Shown: positions 40,816-50,075 of the stretch, piece after piece
Layout of the letters: each line of letters opens with the position of its first letter
How positions within the stretch are numbered: position 1 is the first letter of the stretch
DNA from: Hansschlegelia quercus
GTDB lineage: Bacteria; Pseudomonadota; Alphaproteobacteria; Rhizobiales; Methylopilaceae
DNA length: 64,000 nucleotides
Direction of reading: 5' to 3'
Assembly (NCBI RefSeq): GCF_004310425.1
Contig: NZ_SIUB01000002.1
Span: 310,001-374,000 of the forward strand
Translations under genes and position numbers: made by a program
The notes under the pieces: generated by a model
The model's database searches: none
The model's input: the letters and a program-made list of their open reading frames with translations, nothing else
Told to the model about the DNA's origin: nothing

Positions 40816-42480
40816 GTGCCGGCGCAGCGCATTCTTGGCTTCTTCGCGATTCGGTCGCGGCTCATGCTCCTCGTGGTCGGCGCCGTCGCGCCGCTCGTCG
40901 CCTTGCTTGCGGCTGACGTCTATGACGCCCGTTACGCCGCTATCGAAAACGCGCTGACGACCGTCGAACTGCGCGCAGGCTTTGCCGCCGAAAGGCAATC
41001 CCGAGTTTTCGACAGGGCCGCGGGGCTGCTCAGCGATTTCCGCGCGACCGGCGGCGTCGACACCGCAGGGGGCGCGCAGTGTCAGAAGGCGGCCGCCTCC
41101 TTCGCCAACCGCAACAGCGAGTTCATGACCGTCGGCGTGGTCGACGCCGACGGCGTCATCGTCTGCCACAGCTCAATCGCGGACCGGCGTTCCTTCACCG
41201 ATCCCGACCTCGTCTCGGCGGTTCTCAAGACGAGCCAAAGCGGCGTCGTGGTCAGCCGACTGACGGTGGGAAAGGTGACGGGCAAGCGGACGCTCATCAT
41301 CGCAATGCAGACCGAGTCGGGGTCGACGTCGCCGCCTGGGATCGTGTTCGCCAGCATCGACCTCGCCAGCTTCAGCAATCTGGCCGAACTGTCCGTCGAG
41401 GATGACATCGGGACGGTTCTCGTCGTCGATGGCGCGTCGGGCGAGGTCTTTGCCGGCGGCGGCGTCGGACGATCGCTGATCGGAGGCAATGTCGGCGAGC
41501 CGCTACGCCTCGCGATGCAGCGGCATCTTCCGCGCGCGGGTGCATGGCTGCCCCTGTTCGGCGAGGAGCAAGTGGTGGGATTCGCGCCGCTCCGGGCGCA
41601 GGGCGGATCTCGGCCGATGATGGTCGTCGCCGCGCCCACGGAGCAGATCCTAGCCGACGCGAACCAGCAGGCGATCCGGCACGTGATCGTCGCCGTCGGG
41701 GTTACGGTCTTTGCGCTCGGGGCGACATGGCTGATCGGCGTCGCCGCGCTTGCCCAGCCCATCCGCCGCCTGACGGGAACGGCGGAGAGCATCGGCGCCG
41801 GACGCCTCGACGCGCGTGTCTTGATCGAACCGTGGCAGGCGCGAGAATTGCGGACGCTCGCTGGCGCGCTCAACGACATGGCCATCAAGCTCGGCGCCGC
41901 GCAGGAGCACCTCGAAAGTCTGGCGAATCAGGACAGTCTGACAGGGTTGGCGAACCGGCGGAGGTTCGACAGCGCGCTGGCCGTCGAGTGCCGTCGCGCG
42001 CAGCGGGACGGGCTGCCGTTATCGCTGCTGCTGATCGACATCGATTTCTTCAAGTCGTTCAATGACGAAGCGGGCCACCTCGCGGGCGACCGCTGCCTTC
42101 GGCGCGTCGGCGCGGCGCTGAAGGAATGCGCCACGCGGGCCGGCGACCTCGCCGCGCGCTATGGCGGCGAGGAGTTTGCGCTGATCCTCTCGAACACCTC
42201 CGAACAGAGCGCGATCTCGGTCGCAGCCAATGTGCACGATGCGATCCGCCGCGCTGGGGTGCGCCGTCCGGGTCCCGAAGGCGGTTTTCTTACCGTAAGC
42301 ATTGGGATCGCGTCTTCCGCCAAGGGAGCCGGCGAGATCTTCCCGGAGCAGATGGTCGCGGTCGCCGACGACGCTCTCTACGCGGCCAAGCTGGACGGAC
42401 GGAACCGCTCTCGCATCGGCGTCTGGCCCACAACCCCGGTGATCACTTTCGTCGATAGCGACGTCGCCGCGCCTTCATAG
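40816..42480 (+). CDS. Membrane-bound diguanylate cyclase with HAMP and GGDEF domains
   Basis: A 554-residue protein. A first membrane segment (about 12-34, IRSRLMLLVVGAVAPLVALL) is followed by a periplasmic Cache-like sensor (about 35-285), a second segment (about 288-310, HVIVAVGVTVFALGATWLIG), a HAMP domain (about 310-365) and a GGDEF domain (about 385-535). The active site is YGGEEFALIL, and an RAGD sequence five residues before it is the product-binding I-site, so cyclase activity under feedback inhibition is expected. No EAL domain is present. The start is GTG at 40816; an ATG at 40864 would cut the first membrane helix. Confidence 0.93.
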   Translation: MPAQRILGFFAIRSRLMLLVVGAVAPLVALLAADVYDARYAAIENALTTVELRAGFAAERQSRVFDRAAGLLSDFRATGGVDTAGGAQCQKAAASFANRNSEFMTVGVVDADGVIVCHSSIADRRSFTDPDLVSAVLKTSQSGVVVSRLTVGKVTGKRTLIIAMQTESGSTSPPGIVFASIDLASFSNLAELSVEDDIGTVLVVDGASGEVFAGGGVGRSLIGGNVGEPLRLAMQRHLPRAGAWLPLFGEEQVVGFAPLRAQGGSRPMMVVAAPTEQILADANQQAIRHVIVAVGVTVFALGATWLIGVAALAQPIRRLTGTAESIGAGRLDARVLIEPWQARELRTLAGALNDMAIKLGAAQEHLESLANQDSLTGLANRRRFDSALAVECRRAQRDGLPLSLLLIDIDFFKSFNDEAGHLAGDRCLRRVGAALKECATRAGDLAARYGGEEFALILSNTSEQSAISVAANVHDAIRRAGVRRPGPEGGFLTVSIGIASSAKGAGEIFPEQMVAVADDALYAAKLDGRNRSRIGVWPTTPVITFVDSDVAAPS

Positions 42481-43321: not shown

Positions 43322-44605
43322 ATGTATCTTACGGCGAAGCGCTCTCATCCGGCGCGTCACGATCCTGCCGTAAGTCGCTCAGCCGACGTTCATCGCTCCA
43401 TCGCCGATCGACTTCGCAAGACAAGCGGATTGCTGTTGGCCTGCGGGCTATTAGCCGCCTGTTCGACGGTGTCTCCTGACACCGTTGCGGATGCGACGCC
43501 GCCCGCCAGCGTCGAGACGGTGGCGACGGCTCAAGCATCCTCGGCGGGGCCCGCGTCGGCCAACGGGACCAACAAGCCTTATTCCGTCGATGGCAAGTCC
43601 TACCGTCCCGCTCCGGCGCGCAAGCCTGGCAAGGTCGGCGTCGGTCTGGCGTCCTGGTACGGCGAGAGCTTCCAGGGGCGCCGCACCGCAAACGGCGAGA
43701 CCTTCGACATGGCCGGCTTCACCGCCGCGCATCCGACGCTGCCGCTGCCGTGCTATGCGCGCGTCACCAACGTGCAGAACGGCCGCTCGATGGTCGTGCG
43801 CGTCAACGACCGCGGACCATTCCACAAGAACCGGCTGATCGACGTATCGAAGCGTACCGCTGACATGCTCGGCTTCCGGGGGACGGGCGTCGGCAATGTG
43901 AAGGTCGACTATATCGGCCCGGCATCCGCGACGCGTGACGACCGCCGCATGCTCGCGACCTATCAGGAGTTCGGCCGGCCGGCGATCCCCGCCGGGACGC
44001 AGATGGCGTCGCTTTCACCGGTCTCCGACGCCGCGCTCGCCGCTGAGTCCGGGCAGCCCGCCAGCGTCGTGCAAACGCTTGTCGCGACCGCCGCTTCCGC
44101 TGCGACCACCGCGAAGGATTCTGTTGTGGCCGTCGCCAAGGCGATCCCGCTGCCGTCTTCGGCGCCGGTCAAAGTGGCGACCGCCGCGCCTGCGCATGTC
44201 GCGCCCCGGGCGGATCCCACGGTGGCTTCCGTCAGCCTGACCAAGCCGGTTTCCCTGCCGAACGCGCAGTCGCCCTCGGTCGAGTCGGTCGCAGCGCTCG
44301 CGAAGCGTGAGCAGCCGCATTCGACCGTCGCCGCGCCCAAGGCGCCGGTCGCCGTCGCCTTCGCCGAAACCACGCCGCACAAACGCGTCGTGCAGCCTGC
44401 GGCGCCGGTGCTCGCCAGCTCAACGCCGGACCTGCCGATGCGCGCGGCGCCCGAGCCCGTCAAGGTCGCTGAGGCGCCACAGGCGTCCGCGCCCAGCGTC
44501 TCGTCGCGCATCGCGTCGAGCTTCGAGGCGTTCGGAACGCCGGCTCCCTTCGGTCGCAATGCCGGCGAGCAGGCTGGCGGCCTCGCTTATTCCGGATTCC
44601 GCTAA
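43322..44605 (+). CDS. rlpA: RlpA-like septal lytic transglycosylase, lipoprotein
   Basis: A 427-residue protein. The lipobox LLAAC puts the lipidated cysteine at 47, after an unusually long, basic N-terminal part (34 residues). The DPBB domain (about 105-200) has GLASWYGESFQGRRTANGET and VRVNDRGPFHKNRLIDVSKR, the RlpA signatures with the catalytic Asp expected in VNDRGP. The remaining 200 residues are Ala/Pro/Val-rich and of low complexity, with no SPOR domain that I can recognise. GAGGA precedes the ATG by 8 bases. It sits just upstream of the carboxypeptidase homologue, the usual alphaproteobacterial order. Confidence 0.88.
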   Translation: MYLTAKRSHPARHDPAVSRSADVHRSIADRLRKTSGLLLACGLLAACSTVSPDTVADATPPASVETVATAQASSAGPASANGTNKPYSVDGKSYRPAPARKPGKVGVGLASWYGESFQGRRTANGETFDMAGFTAAHPTLPLPCYARVTNVQNGRSMVVRVNDRGPFHKNRLIDVSKRTADMLGFRGTGVGNVKVDYIGPASATRDDRRMLATYQEFGRPAIPAGTQMASLSPVSDAALAAESGQPASVVQTLVATAASAATTAKDSVVAVAKAIPLPSSAPVKVATAAPAHVAPRADPTVASVSLTKPVSLPNAQSPSVESVAALAKREQPHSTVAAPKAPVAVAFAETTPHKRVVQPAAPVLASSTPDLPMRAAPEPVKVAEAPQASAPSVSSRIASSFEAFGTPAPFGRNAGEQAGGLAYSGFR

Positions 44606-44696: not shown

Positions 44697-45896
44697 ATGA
44701 TCGGAACTCTGCTCTCAACGCTTCGCGGGTCGATCGCAGCTGCCGTTGCAGCCATTCTCCTGGCCGCGCCGGGGCCGGCAATCGCCGCTGCGCCTACTGG
44801 CCCGACGAACGCGCCGATCGCTTTCCTCTACGACGTGGACGCCGGCGCGACGCTGTTCGCCCGACAGGCCGACCTTCCGTCCCCACCCGCCAGCATGGCG
44901 ACCCTGATGACGGCGGAGCTCGTCTTCAAGGCGATGCGCGAGGGCAGGCTCAAGCCGGAGGAGTCCTTCCGCGTCACCGAGGACGCCTGGCGTCGCGGCG
45001 GCGCGCCGTCGCGCGGCTCGACGATGTTCGCGAAGTTGAACTCGGACGTCCCGCTGCCGGACCTGCTCCGAGGCTTGATTGTTCAGTCCGGCGGAGACGC
45101 CGCCATTACGCTCGCTGTGGCCGTCGCAGGATCGGAGCCGGCGTTCGCCGAGCTCATGAACCAGCGTGCGCGCGAGCTCGGTCTGGCCCGCTCGAATTTC
45201 CGGAACGCGACCGGCCTGCCGGCGCCGGACCAGCGGATGACCGCACGCGACATCGCGACCCTCGCGACCTGGCTGATCCAGACGTACCCTGAGGATTACA
45301 AGCTCTTCGCCGAACCGGAATTCACCTGGAACAAGATAACCCAGCGCAACCGCAACCCGCTGCTCGCCGACTATGCCGGCGCTGATGGGCTGAAGACGGG
45401 CTACACGGAAGACGGCGGCTACGGCCTTGTCGGCTCCGTGCAGCGCGACGGTCGTCGCCTGATCCTGGTCCTGAACGGCTTGGAAACCGCGAAGGCCAGG
45501 GCCGAGGAAGCGCGCAAGCTGCTCGACTGGGGCTTTTCAGCCTTTGCCCGCCGGGAGCTCTTCGCTGCGGGTGAGACGGTCGCGGAGGCCCGCGTCTTCG
45601 GCGGAACGACGCTCCATGTGCCGCTTGTGGCCGAGCGCGCGGTCGAGTTGCTCACGCCCAAAGGCGACGAGGGCCGTGTCGCGGCGCGGGTAAGCTATGA
45701 CGGGCCTCTCGTCGCGCCTATCGCCAAAGGCGCGCGCGTCGCGACGCTGCGGGTCTGGCGCGGGGACACGTTGACGCTCGAAACGCCGCTGCACGCGGCT
45801 GAGGACGTTACGGTCGGGCCGCTGCCCCGTAGGGCCTTCGACGGGGCGCTGGAGCTCGTCAGCGGCTGGTGGGACCAGATCTCAGCGAAGATCTGA
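44697..45896 (+). CDS. D-alanyl-D-alanine carboxypeptidase homologue (DacF/PBP5-like) with degenerate active site
   Basis: A 399-residue protein with signal peptide (cleavage near AIAAA, residue 32) and peptidase S11 domain plus a PBP5-like C-terminal beta domain. The fold is well kept: [49 protein letters not shown] and the KTG motif at 233-235 ([20 protein letters not shown]). But the family's SxxK motif reads Ser66-Met-Ala-Thr69 (lysine replaced), and SxN reads Ser131-Gly-Gly133 (asparagine replaced). Both are needed for acylation in active S11 enzymes. The frame is intact and coupled to tmk, so I read it as a pseudoenzyme, not a broken gene. The start at 44697 gives the signal peptide. 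Confidence 0.85.
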
Positions 45897-46537
45897 TGGC
45901 GCAGCGCGGCTTGTTCGTCGCCGTCGAAGGCGGCGACGGGGCGGGGAAGAGCGGCGTGATCGTTGCTCTCATGCGCCATCTCGAAGCGCGGGGCGTCTCC
46001 GCGCTCGCGACCCGCGAGCCAGGCGGCACGGCGGAAGGCGAGCAGCTTCGCGCTCTTCTCCTGTCCGGAGACGGCGAAGCTTGGGACCCACGTTCCGAAC
46101 TCCTGCTGATGACCGCCGCCCGCGTGCAGCATGTCCAGCACGTCATCATGCCTGCCGTCGCGCGCGGCGAGGTCGTGGTCAGCGACCGCTTCGTCGGATC
46201 GACAATCGCGTATCAGGGCGCGGGGAGGGGGCTGCCACTGCCCCTCATCCGAATCCTGCACGATCAGGCGGTGGGCGGTTTGCTGCCCGATCTGACGCTG
46301 GTGCTGGACGTCGATCCCCGCACCGGGATCGCGCGGAGCCGCAAACGGCTCGACGCGAGCGCCATCGACGAAGCGCGGTTCGAGGGTCTCGATCTCGGCT
46401 TCCACGATCGGGTACGCTCAAGCTTCCTTGATCAGGCGGCGCAGGCGCCGGAACGGCACGCGGTGATCGACGCGTCGCTTGAGCCTGAAGCCGTGCAGTC
46501 GGCTGCGATCGCCGCCGTGGATTGCCTCTTGGCGTGA
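45896..46537 (+). CDS. tmk: Thymidylate kinase
   Basis: This 213-residue enzyme phosphorylates dTMP to d[23 protein letters not shown] is the P-loop, [15 protein letters not shown] the DRE-type LID partner, and [20 protein letters not shown] the dTMP-binding region. The LID is basic ([17 protein letters not shown]). The ATG at 45896 shares one base with the preceding stop (TGATG), so it is coupled to the carboxypeptidase homologue. holB follows within about 70 bases. Confidence 0.95.
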
Positions 46538-46607
46538 TGCGCGCGGCGGGTCAAAAGTCCGCCATGGCGCCACGTCGACCCATGCTCGCTCTGTCGGAGC
46601 CGGCCTC

Positions 46608-47669
46608 TTGATCGAGACCGACGGCCCGCCTGAATCCGACCGCCGTGAAGGGCTTCCGCATCCGCGGGAGACGGTGGATCTCGTCGGCCATACGGAGGCG
46701 GAGCAAGCGCTGCTTTCGGCCTTCCGCTCCGCCCGTATGCATCACGCCTGGCTGATTTCCGGCGAGGAAGGAATAGGCAAGGCGACGCTCGCCTACAGGC
46801 TCGCGCGCTTCATCCTGGCGAACCCTGATCCGTCCGCGCCAGCGGTCGTGAACGCAACGGATCTCTCTGTGGATCCGGATCATCCAGCCGCCCGCCGCGT
46901 CGCGCGGCTGGCCCATTCCGATCTCTTCGTGCTGCGCCGAGTGTGGAACGCCGAGCGCAAGGCGTTCTATGGCGACATTCGCGTCGATGACGTGCGTCGC
47001 GCGGTCTCGTTCTTCAGCACGACTGCGGGAGAGGGCGGGTGGCGCGTCGCGATCGTCGATACCGCGGACGACATGAACGGCGCCTCCGCAAACGCGCTCC
47101 TGAAGGCGCTCGAGGAGCCGCCGGCGCGCGCGATCTTCCTGTTGCTCACGACCTCTCCCCGCATGCTGCCCGCACCGGTGCGATCACGGTGCCGGTCGCT
47201 TCGGCTCGAGCCGTTGTCATCGGTTGAGACGCTCCGGGTGCTTCAGGGGCTGCCCGATGCCGAGGAACACGAGCCGGAGGCCTTGCAGGCGGCGGCCGAG
47301 CTTGCCGAGGGTAGCGTCGCACGCGCGCTGTCGCTACTGGCGAATGACGGCGCCGGACTGCGGGCCTCGGTCGCCGCGCTGCTCGACCATCTGCCTGAGA
47401 TCGATGTCCGCGCTGCACATGCGCTCGCCGAAGACCTCGCCAAACGGGGAGGGGAGGAGCGCTTCGCGCTTTTCGTCAGCCTCGTGGGCGACTGGCTGCA
47501 CGCCCGGGCTGTCGACGGCGCCGCAGTGCGGGAGCCGCGCCTTGCGCGCTTCGCGGAGCTATGGGAGAAAACGGCCCGCTCGGCCCGCGATATCGATGTC
47601 TTCAACCTCGACCGCCGGCCCTTCGTCCTTGCGACGCTGACCGAGCTCGCCGGCCTCGCGCGCCGGTGA
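46608..47669 (+). CDS. holB: DNA polymerase III delta-prime subunit
   Basis: A 353-residue clamp-loader subunit. [40 protein letters not shown] (Walker A) and [20 protein letters not shown] with [15 protein letters not shown] (the SRC motif) are the delta-prime hallmarks. The cysteine-rich zinc module between Walker A and the SRC region of many DnaX/HolB relatives is absent, as I expect in alphaproteobacteria. No ATG is in frame before the domain; I use TTG at 46608. The true start could be a further upstream TTG. It lies between tmk and metG in the conserved order. Confidence 0.88.
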
Positions 47670-47700: not shown

Positions 47701-49260
47701 ATGCCGGACCAGAAGCCCTTTTACGTCACGACCGCCATCTCCTACCCGAACGGCGTCCCGCATATCGGGCACGTCTACGAGGCGATCGCGACGGACGCGA
47801 TCGCGCGCTTTCACCGGCTGTCCGGACGCGACGTCCGCTTCGTCACCGGCACGGACGAGCACGGCCTGAAGATGGCGCAGACGGCCGCGCGCGAAGGCGT
47901 GACGCCGTTCGAATGGGCGACGAGGAACGCCGAGCGCTTCCGGGCGATGGACGAGCGCTTCGCGATCTCCTTCGACCGCTTCATCCGCACGACCGACAAG
48001 GACCATTACGCCGCGAGCCAGGAGGTCTGGCGGCGGATGGCGGAGAACGGCGACATCTATCTCGGCAAGTACGAGGGCTGGTACTCGGTCCGCGACGAAG
48101 CCTATTTCGACGAAGCCGAGACGGTTCTGGCCGAGGACGGAAGCCGCAAGGCGCCGACCGGCGCGCCGGTCGAATGGGTGGTCGAAGAGAGCTATTTCTT
48201 CCGCCTCTCGGCCTATCAGGATCGGCTGCTCAAGCTCTACGAAGAACAGCCCGGCTTCATCGGCCCCGAGGCGCGGCGCAACGAGATCCTGGCCTTCGTG
48301 AAGCGGGGCCTGACGGACCTTTCGATCAGCCGCACGACGTTCGACTGGGGCGTGCCGGTGCCCGGCGATCCGCGCCACGTGATGTATGTCTGGCTCGACG
48401 CGCTGACGAACTACCTGACCGGCGCCGGCTTTCCCGACGACGCGTCCGAGCTGAAGCGCTTCTGGCCGGCCGACCTGCACGTGATCGGCAAGGACATCAT
48501 CCGCTTCCATACGGTGTTCTGGCCGGCCTTCCTGATGTCGGCTGGGCTGCCGCTGCCGAAGCGGGTGTTCGCGCACGGCTTCCTCACCAATCGCGGCGAG
48601 AAGATCTCGAAGTCGGTTGGCAACGTCGTCGATCCCTTCGCGCTCGCCGACGGCTACGGCGTCGACGCCGTGCGCTATTTCCTGCTGCGCGAGGCGCCGT
48701 TCGGGCAAGACGGCTCCTACAGCCACGAAGCGATCGTCGGCCGCATCAACGCCGATCTCGCAAATGACCTCGGCAATCTCGCGCAGCGCTCGCTCTCAAT
48801 GGTCGCAAAGAACTGCGAGGGCAGGGCGCCTGCGCCCGGCGTTCCTTCGCCCGCCGACGAGGCGATGCTGGCCGCGGTCGACGCGCTCTGGCCGAAGGTC
48901 TCCGCCGCTTTCGTGGAGCCCGCGCCGCACGCCGCGCTCGCCGCAATCTGGACGGTCGTTGCGGAAGCCAACCGCTATTTCGCGGGCCAGGAACCGTGGG
49001 CGCTCAGGAAGACGGACCCGGAGCGCATGGCGACGGTGCTCTACGTCACGCTCGAGACGGTGCGGCAGATCGCGATACTTGCGCAGCCGGTGATGCCGGA
49101 AGCTGCGTCGAAGCTCCTCGATCTCGTCGGCTCGCCGGAAAACGCGCGCAGCTTCGCGGCGCTCGGGGAGGGCGGTCGGCTCGTCCCCGGCGCCGCCCTG
49201 CCCGCACCGCAGCCGGTGTTCCCGCGCTATGTCGAGTCCGAAGCGGAGGCCGCTTCGTGA
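47701..49260 (+). CDS. metG: Methionine--tRNA ligase
   Basis: This 519-residue class I synthetase has [20 protein letters not shown] with the HIGH motif and [20 protein letters not shown] with KISKS. The connective peptide (about 120-150) lacks the four zinc cysteines, so it is the zinc-free type. There is no C-terminal tRNA-binding dimerisation domain; the protein ends shortly after the anticodon-binding helices. It overlaps tatD by 4 bases (GTGA). Confidence 0.96.
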
Positions 49261-50075
49261 CGGCGGCGCTCGTCGACAGCCATTGCCACCTCGACTTCGC
49301 CGATTTCGCGCCCGAGCGGGACGCGGTGGTTGAGCGCGCCCATGCAGCCGGCGTCGGCCTGATGCTGACGATCTCGACCCGCGTGCGCCGGTTCGACGAA
49401 ATTCTCGCGCTTGTGGAGCGGTATCCCAGCGTCGTCGGCACTGTGGGCACGCATCCGCAAAACGCGCATGAGGAAATCGACGTCTCGGCCGAAGAGCTCA
49501 TTCGGCTCGCGGCGCATCCAAAGATCGTCGGCTTCGGCGAGGCCGGGCTCGATTTCCACTATGAGGGCGACTACGCGGCGCAGGAGCGGGGCTTTCGCGC
49601 CCACATCGCCGCCGCCAGAGAGACGGGCCTGCCTTTGGTGATCCACGCGCGGTCCGCCGACGACAAGATGATCGCCGTGCTCGAGGAAGAGACGGGGAAG
49701 GGGCCCTTCCCCGCGGTCCTTCACTGTTTCTCGTCCGGCGCGGAACTCGCGCGCCGCGGCGTCGCGCTTGGGCTCTACGTGTCCTTCTCCGGAATCCTGA
49801 CGTTCAAGAGATCGGAGGAGCTGCGCACGATCGCCGCTGAGGTCCCGGCCGACCGGCTGCTGGTGGAGACCGACGCGCCGTATCTCGCGCCAGAGCCGTT
49901 CCGCGGCAAGCGCAACGAACCGGCCTATACGGCGCGAACCGCTGCGACGCTCGCTGGCGTCCGCAACTGGAGCGAGGCGGAGACCCGCGCAATCACAACA
50001 GACAATTTCTTCCGCTTGTTCAGTAAGGCGGACAGGAACGCTCTCGTCGTGTCGGAAGCCGTCGGAACCGCATGA
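49257..50075 (+). CDS. TatD-family metal-dependent hydrolase
   Basis: A 272-residue TIM-barrel hydrolase. The metal ligands are in [45 protein letters not shown] and [20 protein letters not shown], the last two being family signatures. TatD-type enzymes act as DNases or on D-aminoacyl substrates; the exact substrate is not clear. The GTG start overlaps the metG stop; the stop overlaps the next ATG by 4 bases. Confidence 0.92.

Follow-up and report, generated by a model that had tools for sequence, protein, structure and literature searches.

Does a PBP5-type protein of peptidase family S11 that has lost the lysine of its SxxK motif still serve the cell and, if so, in what capacity? The question is raised by dacF, a gene within a 64,000-nucleotide stretch of the Hansschlegelia quercus genome (contig NZ_SIUB01000002.1, positions 310,001 to 374,000; hereafter the window). 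Judged by its sequence, DacF is a non-catalytic S11 homologue, and it would be wrong to file it as an active DD-carboxypeptidase. An initial annotation, made from the letters of this DNA, had pointed in the same direction; the fixation of the change in the sampled genus, the loss of a further residue (E141) and the recurrence of motif loss across the order by two opposite routes are new beyond it.

Sequence sets and definitions

The genus sample (g1) comprised 13 genomes, including that of the window (G000). Orthologues of dacF from the order, which the named relatives indicate to be Hyphomicrobiales, formed a set of 195 rows (L004-L198), and the paralogues L002 and L003 were left out of all orthologue counts. 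A conserved core was defined over residues 30-398 of 131 intact-motif orthologues with a threshold of at least 95% of rows, which gave 45 positions; four loci without tmk nearby (L069, L124, L126 and L128) lie outside these 131 rows and inside the 135 intact rows counted below. Genus-fixed differences were those found in at least 12 of the 13 members at columns whose consensus residue is shared by 60% or more of the intact orthologues. The loci L221 and L234 were left out of the omega sets, and the partial rows L056, L060 and L198 were left out of the tree.

The dacF locus and its operon

The dacF reading frame opens with ATG at 44697, its stop codon ends at 45896, and the gene order around it is rlpA-dacF-tmk-holB-metG-tatD, all on the + strand. 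The features are as follows.

43322..44605, + strand: rlpA, with a DPBB lytic transglycosylase-type domain (Pfam)
44697..45896, + strand: dacF ('dac'), S11/PBP5-like protein of 399 aa, non-catalytic by sequence (Pfam, model)
44697..44792, + strand: N-terminal 32 residues of DacF, probable signal peptide (predicted helix 7-21, low model confidence)
45543..45812, + strand: PBP5_C domain, residues 283-372 (Pfam)
45819..45890, + strand: predicted helix 375-398 at the C-terminus, a probable PBP5-like membrane anchor (model)
45896..46537, + strand: tmk, its first base being the last of the dacF stop codon (TGATG junction)
46479..47669, + strand: ORF with holB, DNA polymerase III delta' (ORF extent)
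47701..49260, + strand: metG (neighbour annotation)
49257..50075, + strand: tatD, probable start GTG at 49257, overlapping the end of metG (neighbour annotation)

The initial annotation had given the same start, frame and length, and its claim that the S11/PBP5 fold is kept is borne out by Pfam matches above cut-off to Peptidase_S11 (residues 37-259, 202.8 bits) and PBP5_C (64.9 bits). The AlphaFold model, built on a 12-row alignment (mean pLDDT 84.9, pTM 0.77; helix 375-398 at low to middling confidence), has Pseudomonas aeruginosa PBP5 (4k91, E 6.8e-38) as its top match among solved structures, and by fold and domain architecture DacF is a member of family S11. The coupling of dacF and tmk in a conserved operon had also been proposed, and it extends well beyond this genome: Tmk adjoins 186 of the 195 orthologues, on the same strand every time, and rlpA lies upstream on the same strand in 169. 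Nine orthologues are without Tmk; five of these are near a contig end, and L069, L124, L126 and L128 have none within 2.3-3 kb on each side.

Several observations concern the neighbours themselves. The tmk genes of the window and of G005 (L005) are very unlike those of the other 11 genus members (VEGGDGAGK versus FEGGEGVGKST), which looks like the in situ exchange of the gene for a foreign copy in this lineage, and the minimum pairwise tmk identity in the genus is 37%. RlpA is fast-changing outside its core domain; the window protein has a self-score of 843 bits, with 341 for L005, 186-254 for ten other genus loci and no score for L015, and Pfam found no SPOR domain in it. Upstream of the operon, at 40816-42480, lies a HAMP and GGDEF (diguanylate cyclase) protein with a Cache match below the Pfam cut-off.

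Active-site residues

The residues of the S11 pocket read as follows in the window protein.

44892..44903, + strand: SxxK position, S66-M-A-T69, Lys to Thr (AGC-ATG-GCG-ACC); Thr69 in 13 of 13 genus members
45087..45095, + strand: SxN position, S131-G-G133, Asn to Gly (TCC-GGC-GGA); Asn in 2 of 13 genus members
45117..45119, + strand: V141 (GTG) in place of Glu, which is present in 99% of intact orthologues
45351..45353, + strand: R219 of NRN, kept in 13 of 13 genus members
45393..45401, + strand: KTG 233-235, intact (AAG-ACG-GGC), in 13 of 13 genus members

With codon starts at 44892 (S66), 44901 (T69), 45087 (S131) and 45093 (G133), the codon readout agrees with the initial annotation, which had reported SMAT with Thr69 ACC at 44901, SGG with Gly133 GGA at 45093 and a preserved KTG. 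Its summary that two of three motifs are lost is right in that Lys69 and Asn133 are gone and slightly overstated because both motif serines, Ser66 and Ser131, remain; Glu141, the third lost residue, had been missed. Among the motifs expected of an active S11 DD-carboxypeptidase, DacF has KTG and has neither SxxK nor SxN in full. We take the catalytic and binding roles of Lys69, Asn133, Lys233 and Arg219 to be those of their counterparts in PBP5, and Arg219, going by the structures of PBP5 and PBP6, is presumably a substrate-side residue. The E. coli PBP5 requires its SxxK lysine for activity, and the carboxypeptidase activity of the window protein has probably been lost.

Fixation in the genus and selection

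Alignment of close relatives had been proposed as a way to see whether both changes are shared by the clade; the loss of Lys proved common to all 13 genomes and that of Asn to 11. The gene is present without an internal stop in all 13, each with the SxAT motif and with no variation at S66, T69, S131, K233, T234 or G235. Four different residues occur at position 133 (G 7, T 3, N 2, A 1) and three at position 141 (V 5, A 4, T 4), where Glu is lost throughout. The Thr69 codon is ACG in 12 genomes and ACC in one. A DNA pattern for PAS-x-ATLMT matched in 12 of the 397 genomes sampled from the order, every one within the genus, and gave no match among the 384 non-genus genomes; the 13th member, G007, has the same motif with a Val67 codon outside the pattern. 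In the class-wide sample of 385 genomes, the sole match beyond the window's own genome (L311) has Arg for Ser and is without the motif.

Conservation elsewhere in the protein is high. As many as 42 of the 45 core positions are kept in all 13 members, including both serines, KTG and R219, and those lost are exactly K69, N133 and E141. The genus-fixed differences fall at positions 55, 69, 106 and 239 only; position 106 is Arg, as it is in 33 of the 47 other motif-defective rows, and position 239 carries Asp in place of Glu. None of these differences introduces a new Lys or His, which rules out a replacement base among them.

Maximum likelihood (ML) omega across the genus was 0.066 for dacF and 0.064 for tmk (13 rows each). 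The pair of motif-intact S11 paralogues of the genus gave 0.074 and 0.059 (12 rows each), and g22, the genus used for comparison, gave 0.059 (dacF) and 0.058 (tmk) over 9 rows; all of these values are rough because synonymous sites are highly diverged. Pairwise NG86 values were 0.29 for dacF of the genus, 0.40 and 0.32 for the intact paralogues and 0.21 for dacF of g22. Relaxation relative to the paralogues was seen by neither method, and the low dN/dS that the initial annotation had suggested looking for is present. Exactly three S11 matches were found in each of the 13 genomes, and the other two copies are motif-intact in all of them (26/26), so that carboxypeptidase activity is covered.

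Recurrent loss across the order by two opposite routes

Motifs are intact in 135 of the 195 orthologue rows and defective in 60. When counted by genus, with one genome per genus except for the window's genus (13 rows) and g3 (4 rows), 73 of 100 sampled genera are intact and 27 are motif-defective; the defective genera fall in 13 of 46 families, and families f14, f16, f31, f35 and f42 contain both kinds. The mixed genus g22 has eight intact dacF rows out of nine, and the exception, L294 (G237), has TTG in place of KTG, its SxxK and SxN motifs unbroken and Ser131 present; it is a recent first step of loss on the Lys233 side. No motif-defective copy occurred among 58 paralogues (29/29 and 29/29 intact for two paralogue types). 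This control took the 58 top-scoring loci besides the window's own copies from a pair of searches, each covering 71 genomes and yielding 30 loci; it is therefore biased to close matches, and two of its loci come from the window's genus. Set beside the 27 of 100 genera, this result indicates that motif loss is peculiar to the operon copy and does not affect S11 genes generally.

At E 1e-60, with at most seven candidates scored per genome, 217 of 249 genomes sampled from the order gave a match and 32 did not, so the gene is dispensable, missing or too diverged in some lineages; the genomes without a match include 4-6 Mb members of families f18 and f45. A DNA search of a plasmid collection returned 38 records, of which the 8 listed show short partial matches over 5-7% of the query, to glutamine synthetase where annotated.

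The direction of loss separates the window's genus from the rest. Among the 47 defective rows outside the genus, K69, N133 and E141 are each kept in 46, and S131 is present in 3, K233 in 2 and T234 in 15; the window's genus is the reverse, with the K69/N133/E141 side lost and the S131/K233 side kept. Lys233 is lost with Ser131 kept in two defective rows and in L294, and the opposite holds in one row. Read from these alignments, the S11 pocket falls apart as two units, Lys69 with the Asn and the acid on one side and the Ser131-Lys233 pair on the other. The nucleophile itself is replaced in nine of the 47 rows, by Asn in L054, L058, L192, L193, L195 and L197 and by Ala in L036, L143 and L162, and serine-peptidase activity is therefore unexpected in these tmk-linked orthologues. 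In the 94-112 loop, W98, R99, G101, G102 and M110 are each conserved to at least 90% in every one of the three groups.

K69 survives in g2 and g3, sister genera from the same family, and K233 survives in the window's genus. The simplest view is therefore that their shared ancestor carried both residues, in which case the two losses within this one family are separate events. A quick tree of 112 orthologues with the motif columns masked requires at least six changes between intact and defective, or seven with three states; such counts do not separate loss from gain, and the tree has long branches. A single clade for the 29 other defective rows is rejected, though not strongly (AU p 0.026). Rows of f16g80, f24 and f14 are placed apart from some members of their families, which makes the quick tree a poor guide to deep order.

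What the retained pocket may do

The explanation we favour, with about an even chance of being correct, is that DacF is a membrane-bound S11 (PBP5-type) pseudoenzyme kept by selection and binding D-Ala-D-Ala stem peptides. On this view the window's genus dropped the general-base side (Lys69, with Asn133 and Glu141). It retained Ser66 as nucleophile, the residues of the substrate-binding side (Ser131, Lys233-Thr234-Gly235 and Arg219), the overall fold, the stalk and the predicted helix at the C-terminus. The protein would still be exported and held at the inner membrane, where D-Ala-D-Ala stem peptides would dock without being cleaved at a useful rate; near RlpA or the division machinery, pentapeptides could then be shielded or presented, and the cell's other two S11 carboxypeptidases, both intact, would thereby be tempered. 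It is because the substrate side is kept in this genus that non-cleaving peptide binding is the preferred reading. Judging from the residues retained, we consider the likelihood that binding persists to be evenly balanced, and the shielding role, suggested by analogy, is tentative.

A rather unlikely alternative is that the pocket is irrelevant and that the fold serves as a protein-binding scaffold, recruiting or activating a partner such as RlpA or an intact S11 enzyme, after the model of the degenerate LytM factors, which activate amidases. Such a role would account for the loss of different pocket halves while the fold, the operon and parts of the 94-112 loop persist, and the frequent presence of rlpA upstream is in keeping with it; however, a pure scaffold predicts that S66, S131 and K233 should drift as position 133 does, and pocket residues are among the 42 core positions kept throughout the genus. 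The scaffold role fits the other lineages better.

It is improbable that DacF is still an enzyme with a changed mechanism, through a Ser66-Ser131-Lys233 triad or chemistry altered by Thr69, and the proposed outcome of slow or altered hydrolysis or a long-lived acyl-enzyme is improbable to the same degree. A Ser-Ser-Lys triad is used by amidase-signature enzymes, and the invariance of the six residues from S66 to G235, alongside free variation at 133 and 141, is what this mechanism would lead one to expect. Nevertheless, the genus shows no variation in 181 of 396 columns, nor in 8 of the 25 columns that hold Thr, so that a single unchanging Thr is weak evidence, the losses of N133 and E141 look like relaxation following the loss of the lysine, and the requirement for this lysine in PBP5 also weighs against it. 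A fully rebuilt enzyme, with that triad and with Thr69 for the lysine, acting as an S11/SxxK-superfamily hydrolase or a covalent D-Ala-D-Ala trap without the SxxK lysine, is quite improbable; if it were true, one operon gene would show two opposite dismantlings of one active site, with the base half naturally split from the substrate half.

Slow decay of a redundant third S11 gene, kept solely through its operon coupling to tmk, is very unlikely. It would suit this reading that each genome of the genus has two intact paralogues, that loss recurs in the order and that 32 genomes gave no match, but coupling to tmk would preserve the frame and not the residues, and a pseudogene is disfavoured by an omega inside the range of the intact paralogues, the absence of stops in 13 genomes and the loss of just three core positions; the initial annotation had likewise argued against decay, from the intact frame, the normal length and the link to tmk in a conserved operon. 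The probability of a sequencing or assembly error is practically nil, as Thr69 occurs in 13 separate genomes by way of two Thr codons and so is neither an error nor an accident of one strain.

S11 carboxypeptidases are commonly counted as active from annotation, and the operon copy is defective in about a quarter of the sampled genera, including rhizobia in which peptidoglycan and polar growth are under gene-by-gene dissection. The opposite losses provide natural variants in which one or the other half of the S11 pocket, the catalytic-base side or the substrate side, has gone, and they make wall regulation through binding by inactive S11 proteins directly testable. Among the literature matches listed, with subscription journals mostly outside their range, there was no report of motif loss in a tmk-linked S11 protein, and the available portions of PMC5567381, PMC9022086 and PMC6435803 hold nothing that bears on it. 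PMC9320039, a paper on PBP6, gave no match to the residue names looked for.

Comparison with known systems

The window protein shares with E. coli PBP5 (DacA) and PBP6 (DacC), of MEROPS family S11, the fold, the S11 and PBP5_C domains, a predicted C-terminal helix, both serines and KTG, and differs from them in having no catalytic lysine, no SxN asparagine and no E141, the conserved acid. The degenerate LytM factors EnvC and NlpD are peptidases of the cell wall that lack catalytic residues and work through binding; unlike the window protein, they have an unrelated fold of metallopeptidase origin. E. coli PBP6a keeps the full motif set. According to the available part of PMC4916385, PBP6a is inactive as a DD-carboxypeptidase in cells, with lower but real activity on an artificial substrate, and protection of pentapeptides was suggested as its role; that it has its serine follows from the S66A mutant made in that work. 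Cell shape was unaffected by the inactive PBP6a(S66A) and was not restored by inactive forms of PBP5 and PBP6b, so that shape in E. coli depends on activity, at least from the part of PMC4916385 available. PBP6a is thus likewise an S11 protein reported there as inactive in cells, and the window protein differs from it in that the base is missing.

In Sinorhizobium meliloti Ak57, the order rlpA-dac-tmk-holB-metG-tatD is found on a 3.7-Mb record labelled as a plasmid, and its Dac carries S131L, K233A and R219K. SMc01188 ('pbp5C') is probably this tmk-linked dac gene, because SMc01192 is methionyl-tRNA synthetase in the accessible text of PMC4941405 and the Ak57 dac lies three genes before metG. 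In a transposon study, insertions in SMc01188 significantly lowered the competitive index under the host peptide NCR247, and under polymyxin B these genes had no effect that reached significance, going by the portion of the article available (PMC5539429). If SMc01188 is indeed dac, a motif-defective member has a cell-envelope role; as the S. meliloti protein is without the substrate side, this lends no support to peptide binding in the window's genus. Four annotated DD-carboxypeptidases, one called dac, are given for S. meliloti in the available text of PMC7327166, a count that may be one too high. For Agrobacterium tumefaciens, a DD-carboxypeptidase 'dac', the gene not being specified in the part of PMC11527210 available, is synthetically essential with the loss of LD-transpeptidases.

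Close counterparts of DacF are encoded by the tmk-linked S11 genes in Sinorhizobium, in Rhizobium and in several records from Mesorhizobium; one Mesorhizobium record, L070, is motif-intact. These counterparts are orthologues from the same operon that show motif loss in an intact frame. In them Ser131 and Lys233 are gone and Lys69, Asn133 and Glu141 remain: the missing half of the pocket is opposite to the one lost in the window's genus.
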